A DNA stretch of 64,000 bases from Adineta ricciae (taxonomy: Eukaryota > Rotifera > Eurotatoria > Adinetida > Adinetidae): assembly GCA_905250025.1 (NCBI GenBank), contig CAJNOJ010000061.1, forward strand, positions 124,001-188,000, in the 5' to 3' direction. The translations under genes and the position numbers were made by a program. This document shows positions 52,738-60,623 of this stretch, piece after piece. Every line of letters begins with the position of its first letter. The stretch's first letter is position 1. The notes under the pieces are model-generated. The model ran no database searches. It worked only from the letters and a program-made list of their open reading frames with translations, and had not been told where the DNA came from.

Positions 52738-53115
52738 ATGCATCTCACACACTTCTTCTCAATGATTCTTCTCATTCCTATTTACAATCAAATCTTTTCA
52801 CTTGCCATGCAAATAATTAGCACGAGTACGAGTACAACAAAGACATTAACTACTAAAACAACATCGGATGTGATTGATTTACAAGATGGCCATCCAAATC
52901 ATCGATTATGGCAAAAGATGATTGATTCTGAACGTGCATCATTTCATGATTGGTATGTTATCTATTTCGATCAACTTCTCTCTAGTTTTTGTTGTTGTTG
53001 TTGCTCCTTTCCGTTTCGAGAATGTTGTACTTTGATCAAAGTAACAAGTATATATAGAATGAGAGCAGCGACGAAAGTGAAGAAGAATGATGAATGGCAG
53101 GTACATAGAAACTAA
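52738..53115 (+). CDS. Possible small secreted protein (weak)
   Basis: The frame opens at ATG 52738 with a hydrophobic leader (SMILLIPIYNQIFSLAM), then a Ser/Thr-rich stretch and DLQDGHPNHRLWQKMIDSERASFHDW to about 52952, where a good donor (GGTATGT) occurs. Past that point the translation (Cys run, Phe/Ser) looks non-coding. It could be a first exon whose partner I could not place. Low confidence. Confidence 0.3.
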   Translation: MHLTHFFSMILLIPIYNQIFSLAMQIISTSTSTTKTLTTKTTSDVIDLQDGHPNHRLWQKMIDSERASFHDWYVIYFDQLLSSFCCCCCSFPFRECCTLIKVTSIYRMRAATKVKKNDEWQVHRN

Positions 53116-57377: not shown

Positions 57378-60300
57378 ATGCGTCTACGTATTGATTTGCA
57401 TGTTTTAACAACAATCTTCACACTTATTTCTAGCACAAATTTACAACGCAGTGATGCATCAATAAAAACTGTCGAAGAGTTTCTCGATACTCTCATTAAT
57501 TCAAGTCGTTATGATAGGCGTATTCGACCATTTTTTGATCAGCAGAGTGAGTCGATTTCTTTTTCCTTTCGTTCATGATTTGTTAACTATTTCGCTTATA
57601 TTCATTGATAGAACCGTGCAACGTGACAATGACGATCCATATTAATACGATTTCAGCTATCAATGAAGTTAATATGGTAAGGCATAACCATTGAACAACT
57701 CACAATTATTCATCGGCACAAATGAATATTCAATATATATTTGTTTTCTCTAGGATTATAATACTGATATTATTTTCCGACAGTCTTGGTATGATCCTCG
57801 CCTAAATTATTCCGGAACTGATTGGGCACAACGATCACCGCAAATTACTTTGCATTATTCTCTTATCGATCGAATATGGGTGCCGGATTCATTCTTTCGG
57901 AATGCCAAAGAAGGTAAACGCAGTGATATTACGGTGCCCAATCGATTGATTCGTATTCATCGCGATGGCAAAGTACTCTACAGTCAACGGTTCGTTTGCT
58001 CTTCATCGATAAACAAGAATAAACGCAGTGTTTTATTCGAATTCTTTTTCAGACTCTTACTTAAACTTGATTGCCAAATGAAATTGCAAAAATTTCCACT
58101 TGATAACCAAACATGCGTAGTTAACATTGGCAGTTGTACGTTGAATTTCGTTGTCTTCCATTGTCGAATCATTTCTGATTATGATTTATGCTTATTAGAT
58201 GCATTTGGTACCAATGACTTGGCATTCTATTGGGATGAATCGCAAAATGTCAGTGCTATCCGAGTCAACGAAGATCTCGAAATGCCCGATTTTGTTTTAA
58301 GTAATCATGAAGCGAAGTATTGCAATCGAACAACAGCCACAGGTTAGATATACGATCTAAGTGTTAGCAAAGTATTATTCACTAAACAAAAAATAATCTT
58401 TCTTCATTTGTGTGATGTTGATGTTCATGCTGCTTATATAGAGAGGAACATATTGTTAATTTTCTTATTTAAACAAAGCTTTTCTTCACTCGGCTCATAG
58501 GCGCATTTGCTTGTATCGAAGTGCATTTGAAATTACAACGAAATCTTGACTTATATATTCAAGAACTTTATCTACCATCGACATTGATTGTAACATTATC
58601 TTTTATCGGCTTCTGGGTCGATTATAAATCCCATCCAGCAAGAACTCTACTTAGTTTACTGAGTATTGTCACTATCTCAACACAAGCCGCAGGTACAAAA
58701 ACTGAAACTTCTTTGCTTTTATCCCATATTCTTTATCAATGTTGTGTTATCTCGCTTATAAAGCCAATCCTCACGCGCATTTCGCTTTCACATTCATTTT
58801 AGCACAACCTATCATTTATGCACTAATGAATTCTTTTTAGTTTTCATTTCAATGCTTTGATTGACAGTTATTTTTCGTCGTGCTTGCTTTGTATATATTA
58901 TTATTTGCCTTTTCCGCTTCGTTCAGACATTCTATATATAAGCAGCAAAGAAAACAGATACTCCAATGAAGAAAGTTATTTTTGATTAGTACTAAGTACA
59001 AATTCGAGAGTCTTTGTCTACTTTTCTTGTTATTCTTTGAAATAATTGATTTTCTAGGCAGTTTTACATGCCTTCTCGTTGTTCTACATTTAAAGCGTTT
59101 GTTTGGTTATTATCTCGGTGAGTTTCTTCTGTTTTACTTGTTAAATTTGTTCAGAGAAAGTAAATTCTTTGAATCTCTCTAGTACAAGTTTATATTCCAT
59201 CGATGCTCATTGTGATCCTTTCTTTTGTTTCATTTTGGATCGATCATAAATCGGTAAGCCCGATGAGCAGACATTAACGATTCTTTATAATCTCCTTATC
59301 TCTCGATCTCATACGCAGGTTCCCGCTCGGATCTCTGTCGGACTTTTGACTGTTCTAACAGTTACCACTCAAAGCTCAGGTAAGGCGGAGGTGATGTGCT
59401 CTTATACCCTTTGCTTCATTCCGGCTTTTGCTGTTCGTTTTATTAGTTTTAAAAAAAACTATACAGTATAATGAATGTAACCTTATATTCCAATGTTAAT
59501 CTACGTTTATCTATCATTAGGTATTCGGTCTCAACTGCCGCGTGTCTCCTATATTAAAGCAATTGATGTTTGGATGTCAGCCTGTCTTGTTTTCGTCTTC
59601 GCCGGTCTGCTCGAATACGCCTTAGTCAACGTTATTGCCCGCAAAGGTGAATTGAGGCAACAAGTTCGATTTTCCAAAGAAGTAAGCCATTGTTTTCTCT
59701 TTCCTATCCGAGTGGCACAGAACAGCGAGATATCTGGATTTGAATCGTGTGACGATTGTCGCCGATGCGAATAAAAGGTATTGAACATCTTTATATTTTA
59801 TAGAGAAAAGGTACGGATAGACCGCCGAAATTAACTTTAATACAAAAACTTCAAAATGGCTCGACCTTTGCTGCTGAGAGAGTAATTTAATCATGAATAT
59901 AGATTCCTTATCATCTCCGTTCACTCACTCGCTCGTACATGCTCACAAATAGATATTGTTCTTTTCTTTTAACCATTCACATCCACTAAATGCACAACTT
60001 TCTTTATTCGTTCTTTTCGTTTCTCTTTTGAATGCATATGATTTCATACAAACTACTATATGTTGTTTCATTTGTGTTTTCTTGATTCGATCGGCGCGTA
60101 TAACACATTTAAGAATTCTTCCATTTGTCATTTAGGTTATTGGAAACCGTCTTGCTCAAGTTCAGTTCTATAAAAAAGAGGACGGAAATGACAGTGCTGA
60201 AACGATGGAGGCACTCGTTCACAAATCAAGCAGTGCTGATAGAAATGCAGGTGGCAATGCAAGTTCCCATGTTCAATACTCCGCTATGTCAAATTCAAGT

Positions 60301-60623
60301 GGTCCAATATCAACACAAGCAAATCCATTACCACAAGTTGTCTTAGCACAACCAGCACCGATTGCCAAAGCTGCCAAACCTGTCCGTGACAGCGCGCAAT
60401 TTGTAAGTTTAATTTAGAGTGCAAGTTAATTTAAAAGCACTCGTTCATTTTTCTTTTAGGTCGATCTCGTCTCGGCAGTTCTCTTTCCGGTCGCCTTTAT
60501 TGTATTCAATATTATTTACTGGTAAGTCAATAGTAATTCTCTTGGGCACTTTTCTCATTCGATTGTTCTCTTTCTTTCAGGATGGTCTATCTTAATATGC
60601 AAGTGGAATATGTCCTGAAATAA
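57378..60623 (+). CDS. GluCl-like Cys-loop ligand-gated chloride channel with alternative pore exons
   Basis: Pentameric anion-channel subunit. ATG 57378 opens a signal peptide (VLTTIFTLIS). The ligand-binding domain follows: FFRQSWYDPRL, WVPDSFFRNAKEG, the Cys-loop C-x13-C (CQMKLQKFPLDNQTC), and NHEAKYCNRTTATG, which with the next exon's cysteine forms the second disulfide typical of GluCl/GlyR. M1 and M2 exist in two versions (58501-58692, or three exons within 59058-59379). M3 is KAIDVWMSACLVFVFAGLLEYALVN (from 59521). The M3-M4 loop spans exons ending 59681, 59804-59881 and 60136-60402, and M4 is AVLFPVAFIVFNIIYW. Stop 60621-60623. Both M2 versions carry the PAR motif before M2, so chloride selectivity is expected. 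KYC...TG is closest to invertebrate GluCl, but ligand specificity is inferred. Confidence 0.9.
58501..58692 (+). other. Pore cassette A: single 192-nt alternative exon (pre-M1, M1, M2)
   Basis: One exon, phase 1 at both ends, bounded by CATAG and GCAG|GTAC. It codes GAFACIEVHLKLQ..., M1 (YLPSTLIVTLSFIGFW) and M2 (PARTLLSLLSIVTISTQAAG). It aligns residue for residue with cassette B. Relative to B it has Leu in place of Ser at 2' and Val in place of Leu at the 9' gate. Confidence 0.8.
59058..59379 (+). other. Pore cassette B: three exons totalling 192 nt (pre-M1, M1, M2)
   Basis: Exons 59058-59117, 59183-59253 and 59319-59379 (60+71+61 nt) splice to GSFTCLLVVLHLKR..., M1 (YIPSMLIVILSFVSFW) and M2 (PARISVGLLTVLTVTTQSSG). 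This is the canonical GlyR/GluCl sequence. It enters and leaves in phase 1, exactly as cassette A does. Confidence 0.85.

Follow-up and report, generated by a model that had tools for sequence, protein, structure and literature searches.

Alternative pore-encoding cassettes in a putative glycine receptor/GluCl-type channel gene of the bdelloid rotifer Adineta ricciae, and an intronic helix that may govern the choice between them

A gene in which two complete versions of the sequence encoding a channel pore lie between single sets of exons for the ligand-binding domain and for the remainder of the membrane domain raises the question of whether both versions are functional and, if so, how one or the other comes to be included in the mature message. 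The gene considered here, a subunit gene of the glycine receptor (GlyR)/GluCl type, occupies positions 57378–60623 on the + strand of the window, the term used for the whole 64,000-nucleotide stretch that was analysed, which is part of contig C61 of the 130-Mb genome of Adineta ricciae. The spliced model of the gene, canonical (GT/AG) at every junction named, comprises the following features, the last of which is a probable addition.

57378–57546, 57612–57676, 57754–57989, 58053–58135 and 58199–58342, + strand: exons E1–E5, signal region and ligand-binding domain
58501–58692, + strand: cassette A, a single exon of 192 nt, phase 1 at both ends, encoding pre-M1, M1, the M1-M2 linker and M2
59058–59117, 59183–59253 and 59319–59379, + strand: cassette B (B1, B2 and B3), 60 + 71 + 61 = 192 nt, phase 1 at both ends
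59521–59681, 59804–59881, 60136–60402, 60460–60521 and 60581–60623, + strand: exons E7–E11, M3, intracellular loop, M4 and stop
52738–52952, + strand: probable upstream first exon, matching the N-termini of the intron-free contig proteins P0038 and P0040

Exons E1–E5, which gave a match to PF02931, are common to both potential isoforms and recur with the same lengths and sites in three further copies of the gene (L009, L010 and L011, vide infra); exons E7–E11 are present only once, serve both cassettes and are conserved in all four copies. The exon at 52738–52952, which lies 4.5 kb upstream, has a signal-peptide-like start and is joined to an acceptor inside E1 (57433|57434), is probably also used, and the 5′ start of the gene is uncertain; were it used, the ATG at 57378 would be an alternative start.

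Cassette A consists of one exon and cassette B is interrupted by two 65-nt introns, each edge of both falling inside a Gly codon. Inclusion of either alone results in an uninterrupted protein of 499 aa. All four possible combinations are in frame (1500 nt with either A or B, 1692 nt with the two together and 1308 nt without them), and consequently the reading frame does not enforce exclusivity. A preliminary description of this DNA had placed junctions at 58342, 58501, 58692, 59058, 59379 and 59521, all of which are present with canonical GT/AG sites; its account of two 192-nt cassettes with phase 1 at both ends was borne out, as was its reading of M2, in which A retains the PAR motif with Leu at 2′ and Val at 9′ and B has the canonical Ser and Leu at those positions. 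The cassettes share 46.9% identity over 64 residues, and the strength of the tblastn match between them within an 8-kb region (E 1.3e-19) indicates that the likeness is not due to chance: they are adjacent homologous exon units of equal length and phase, as in tandem-duplicated mutually exclusive exons. An unconstrained tree calculated from 64 columns placed A (100/100) outside a group comprising B and two monogonont-like sequences (97/82), although a tree keeping A and B together was not rejected (p-AU 0.31) and A forms a long branch.

Both PF02931 and PF02932 were detected in the 499-aa product, the membrane domain scoring 111.7 bits with A and 137.3 bits with B against a cut-off of 28.1 bits. 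The hallmarks of Cys-loop channels are present (13 residues between the cysteines of the Cys-loop, the loop-C Cys pair and PAR before M2), with C164 and C178 invariant in the alignment and C226 and C237 near-invariant. When the B form was compared with solved structures, glycine receptor alpha scored highest (350.8 bits), followed by GluCl (305.1 bits) and GABA-A beta (272.2 bits), and it is because the best solved relatives are glycine receptors, then GluCl, that the gene is named GlyR/GluCl-type; the earlier designation ‘GluCl-like’ was too specific. As judged from these sequence comparisons, the gene encodes an anion-type Cys-loop channel subunit of the GlyR/GluCl kind, an assignment that is putative on the ligand side. 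The AlphaFold model of an A-only protein (P0003) contains four membrane helices (mean pLDDT 71.7), and glycine receptors accounted for 50 of the 50 PDB matches among those listed for it.

Four copies of the gene were located, on contigs C61 (the window), C152 (L009), C69 (L010) and C20 (L011), which represent two allelic pairs that were anciently duplicated: C61 and C152 are approximately 95% identical over an aligned 8 kb, and L010 and L011 constitute the second, diverged pair. The degenerate tetraploidy of bdelloids was reportedly established before the bdelloid families diverged, to go by the title of a 2009 paper from Hur et al. Genome searches (17 matches for A and 31 for B, the best candidates being scored) located A and B together only at these four copies, and no second cassette was found at six related A. 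ricciae loci (L012–L017) picked from the best of 100 matches. These six loci carry SAR, ADR or NDR at the position occupied by PAR in the present gene.

None of the four copies has lost an exon or a GT/AG site, A and B retain their lengths throughout, and A contains neither stops nor frameshifts. Between the pairs, A has undergone 19 replacement changes (about 146 sites) and 33–36 silent ones (about 46 sites) (dN 0.143 and dN/dS 0.057 versus L011; silent sites saturated versus L010), B has undergone no replacements in 64 codons and 23 silent changes on 48 sites, the ligand-binding part exhibits a dN/dS of 0.05–0.06, and the introns are 46–61% identical after alignment. Because its dN/dS between the pairs is about 0.06, A is, by this comparison of copies, functional coding sequence under purifying selection, though freer than B. 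The contrary proposition, that A is a decaying relic and that B alone is used, accords with its divergence from B and its faster rate of change, but is effectively refuted by the selection result; the intact reading frame and splice sites in four copies, the 25 distinct intact versions found elsewhere and the joining of E5 to A in P0038 all oppose it, and its probability is virtually nil. The related possibility that A is a chance or decaying open reading frame (ORF) was ruled out by the four intact copies together with the dN/dS value.

Two further observations concern the silent sites. Neither cassette shows a single difference in its 192 nt between the window and L009, although the silent divergence of the ligand-binding exons of these alleles is about 0.08. 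Between the pairs, B exhibits fewer silent changes than A (23 on 48 sites as against 33–36 on 46), which perhaps reflects an extra constraint on the RNA, or gene conversion.

Among 240 database proteins listed, A was found 35 times, in 25 distinct 65-residue versions (23 distinct by the first 64 residues; in 3 of the 25 the end derives from a mis-spliced gene model), the hosts being Adineta ricciae, A. steineri, A. vaga, Rotaria species, Didymodactylos carnosus and environmental contigs. Thirteen A-bearing ORFs correspond to no spliced gene model, and in each of them A forms one exon with intron read-through on both sides. The M2 residues of A are highly uniform: Leu at 2′, Ser at 4′ and Leu at 6′ in 25/25 versions, and Val at 9′ in 24/25 (Ala in the other), the whole stretch from 2′ to 6′ being invariant. 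The comparison set consisted of the 124 distinct cassettes with >30% identity to B out of 203 distinct other cassettes and, being anchored on the P-x-R/K motif, places cation-type channels outside its scope; within it, Leu was never present at 2′ (0/124), 9′ was Leu in 121/124 (Val in 2, Phe in 1) and 4′ was Gly in 120/124. A profile of A recovered 7 proteins among 81 candidates, six of them bdelloid-type A and the seventh (P0243) having the canonical Leu at 9′ with Thr at 2′. A relative in the acanthocephalan Pomphorhynchus laevis (P0045) is represented by a gene model that stops within M1-M2.

One study of human GABRA2 assigns the desensitization gate to positions −2′ to 2′, treats as pathogenic a reported 9′ Leu-to-Val substitution by which the pore becomes wider at the activation gate, and links 9′ mutation to predominantly open channels (PMC7336760). 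Since A places Leu at 2′, in the region of the desensitization gate, and Val at 9′, where the activation gate lies, channels containing it should by analogy differ in gating, desensitization and conductance. An alternative is that the product of A does not form a channel of its own but joins B subunits as a partner that is non-conducting or dominant-negative, a role that would suit both its departure from near-invariant pore positions (9′ Leu and 4′ Gly) and the faster evolution of its protein sequence (19 versus 0 replacements). However, PAR, M1 and M2 are all retained, and the invariance of 2′ to 6′ in 25 versions suggests a working pore; the proposal, which was considered rather unlikely, is in any event compatible with the splicing component of the explanation preferred below.

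Evidence concerning the splice products was sought in database contigs and gene models. P0038 (JGI; 355 aa from a 1150-nt contig) has E5 joined to A, followed by 22 intron codons up to a stop, and is deemed to be intron-free upstream because it runs without a break across residues for which A. ricciae uses six or more exons; P0040 (336 aa from a 1436-nt contig) has E5, B1 and B2 joined before running into the B2-B3 intron. Both are probably incompletely processed cDNA, and together they indicate that E5 is able to splice to either cassette. The same read-through after A as in P0038 occurs in P0209, a genomic-looking ORF from a 3036-nt contig. Were such transcripts normally to end in the intron after A, as the stop 22 codons on in P0038 might imply, the outcome would be a truncated receptor comprising only the ligand-binding domain plus M1-M2. 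This was judged highly improbable, as the equivalent entry of P0040 into the B2-B3 intron argues that retention in such contigs is not special to A, the donor of A and its phase relative to M3 are kept in four copies, and six gene models join A to M3. No A-M3 junction in a transcript was found among the database proteins and contigs examined, and a 148-aa E5–A–E7 query returned no A-bearing match spliced at either edge of A among the best 120 of 188 matches (206 candidates).

The 37 bdelloid gene models (P0001–P0037) were divided between A only (6/37), B only (11/37), both cassettes (13/37), A plus part of B (2/37), M3 with neither cassette (4/37) and none of these (1/37). As described by Nowell et al. 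2021 (PMC7943196), these models were generated with BRAKER, supported by own RNA-seq for A. ricciae, R. magnacalcarata, R. socialis and R. sordida, by borrowed RNA-seq for A. steineri and two Silwood species, and by none for D. carnosus; as evidence for any particular junction they are weak. The four models lacking both cassettes (P0031–P0034) are from Rotaria and represent either prediction error or a real form in which both are skipped.

The 13 models with both cassettes, which include P0001 and P0006 of A. ricciae, raise the possibility that A and B are spliced in together to give a subunit of 563 aa with six helices and two M1-M2 hairpins. Such a product would be in frame and is compatible with membrane topology, M2 ending and pre-M1 beginning on the extracellular side. 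Several of these models nevertheless contain intron stretches (P0002, P0005 and P0011) and therefore look like automatic predictions, and in the AlphaFold model of P0001 (mean 63.7) the membrane part is ill defined, with pLDDT values for residues 251–320 of about 34–60 compared with 59–74 in the A-only model. Furthermore, A retains its own loop-C-partner Cys and pre-M1, as direct joining to the ligand-binding domain would require. A two-pore subunit was accordingly rated improbable. The mutual exclusivity asserted in the preliminary description accords with the E5-A and E5-B1 junctions of the two contigs, and is countered by the in-frame status of the both and neither combinations and by the models (13/37 and 4/37) that display them; A and B may be mutually exclusive.

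The introns on either side of cassette A contain complementary elements, as follows.

58398–58410, + strand: S1, CTTTCTTCATTTG, E5-A intron, docking-site-like arm
58965–58977, + strand: D, AATGAAGAAAGTT, A-B1 intron upstream of B1, selector-like arm
58428–58440, + strand: TGCTGCTTATATA, arm of a second pairing in the window lineage, a perfect 13-bp complement of 58935–58947
58935–58947, + strand: TATATAAGCAGCA, partner of 58428–58440

A scan for conserved blocks, in which the 13 introns of the window gene were compared with those of L010 and L011 and with 300 randomizations, detected identical blocks of 13 nt in two introns only, these being S1 (equalled in 1 and 0 of 300 randomizations) and D (1 and 4 of 300). 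The next-best block was one of 10 nt in the E7-E8 intron (7/300 versus L010, and not found with L011), and a further A-rich block of 10 nt was present in the B3-E7 intron (14/300 with L011). S1 and D, which flank cassette A, are reverse-complementary along 11 nt. The pairing extends to 19 perfect bp in L010 and L011, a length attained in 0/1000 and 0/200 shuffles respectively, and in the window it consists of 11 bp, a one-base bulge and 8 further pairs; a duplex as favourable in energy arose in 1/1000 shuffles for the window and in 0/1000 each for L010 and L011. Beyond the core, the arms read AATAA/TTATT in the window versus AAAAA/TTTTT in L010, which amounts to one compensatory change. When 78 intron pairs were compared, the longest perfect complement belonged to the S1/D pair in each lineage, and no other pair retained complementarity of at least 8 nt in both; the comparison covers two independent lineages of intron DNA. 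Folding of the whole region gave helix probabilities of 0.98 (window), 0.98 (L009), 0.80 (L010) and 0.08 (L011), and the minimum-energy folds of L010 and L011 lack the S1-D helix. The second helix of the window lineage was matched in length by 2/1000 shuffles.

No second selector was found after B, the pairing of D with that intron being matched by 114, 325 and 308 of 1000 shuffles; a CTTTGCTTCATT-like stretch (at ~59408 in the window) was considered as a competing selector and rejected, its pairing with D being no better than in shuffles. Two ORFs, P0209 and P0225, extend 31 residues or more upstream of A, and both contain FFIC there, as S1 would read; NEES, as D would read, occurs in 2 of the 8 ORFs with at least 45 residues downstream (P0195 and P0208) and in none of the other six. 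Read from protein, these environmental ORFs offer only hints of traces of S1 and D.

The reading preferred, to which a probability of roughly 0.8 was assigned, is that splicing selects either A or B for inclusion between E5 and E7, that the intronic helix steers the selection, and that two subunits with differing gates are the result. E5 and E7 would be constitutive, and insertion of A or B between them would produce two 499-aa subunits identical in ligand-binding domain, M3, intracellular loop and M4 and different in pre-M1, M1 and M2; the channels made from one gene would thus probably have a common sensor but differ in their gates. In the precursor RNA, pairing of S1, after E5, with D, ahead of B1, would loop out exon A with its splice sites and bring the E5 donor close to the B1 acceptor, thereby favouring B, and with the helix open or blocked the nearer acceptor, that of A, would be used. 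The position and conservation of the S1-D helix suggest that it may affect this choice. Within the elements examined, no mechanism was found that would stop A from joining to B1.

The claim of the preliminary description that one gene harbours two functional alternative pores is strongly supported by the four intact copies, the purifying selection on A, the occurrence of A in Adineta, Rotaria and Didymodactylos, the contigs that join E5 to A and to B1, and the conserved intronic helix; the survey of related rotifers and the dN/dS determination that it had proposed yielded an intact A in Rotaria and Didymodactylos and a value of about 0.06. A bolder extension, put forward tentatively and with the odds somewhat against it, is that an ancient bdelloid RNA switch replaces the entire gate of an inhibitory-type receptor without altering the sensor, and so supplies leaky, differently desensitizing or low-conductance channels on demand. 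If true, such a gate switch would bring in a pore with Val at 9′ and with a ring of 2′ Leu, the latter absent from the 124 other family members compared.

The locus offers a naturally occurring test of the activation gate in pentameric channels, with 9′ Val in one of the two pores of a single gene, a pore that strong selection has maintained from a time before the two pairs of copies separated. As two natural subunits that differ only within 64 residues are available, the question of gating is directly testable. To the extent that the relevant account (PMC6071210) names the insect genes concerned, the locus also offers a compact two-variant system outside them in which it can be asked whether one long-range helix suffices for the choice of variant.

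No print record of mutually exclusive exons in bdelloids was found in the open-licence literature, nor one of this gene among the matches listed for rotifer Cys-loop/GluCl channels and bdelloid splicing, matches represented in part by excerpts. The preliminary description had regarded a pore swap as unusual in this family, which overstated the case in view of precedents provided by avr-14 and the nicotinic acetylcholine receptor (nAChR) alpha6 gene. In the first of these, a nematode GluCl gene, the subunits AVR-14A and AVR-14B have a common ligand-binding domain and diverge thereafter, according to a passage of PMC3144221, whereas in the rotifer gene pre-M1 to M2 is exchanged and M3–M4 is common; an alternative membrane half of the avr-14 type is not matched here, since E7–E11 are single and common. 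In the second, mutually exclusive exons 8a, 8b and 8c of the insect gene cover part of TM2, as summarised in extracts of PMC6393475 and PMC2064938. The likeness lies in internal alternative exons that alter TM2, as the rotifer cassettes do; however, nAChR alpha6 is a cation channel from another branch of the gene family whose alternative exon is part of TM2, unlike the rotifer unit, which extends from pre-M1 to the end of M2 and consists of one exon in one variant and three in the other.

Within anion-channel genes, the variants of insect GluCl exon 3 and of RDL exons 3 and 6 sit in the ligand-binding domain, whereas the rotifer cassettes encode the pore. These insect exons are listed as tandem alternative exons in part of PMC2064938. 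With regard to mechanism, the closest parallel is Dscam exon 6, for which sections of PMC6071210 describe an element after the upstream constitutive exon that pairs with another ahead of a distal variant and loops out the proximal variant, together with a likely repressor as the mechanism invoked for preventing variant-variant joining. The rotifer helix has the layout of that system in its smallest form, S1 being docking-site-like and D selector-like, and the conserved complementary intron elements around the variants are the feature held in common; it differs in having two variants, one pairing and no supported competing selector, and in that the effect of the helix is a prediction made here. 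What is new relative to these precedents is the unit exchanged, its one-versus-three-exon make-up, the change at 9′, the bdelloid host and the conserved helix.
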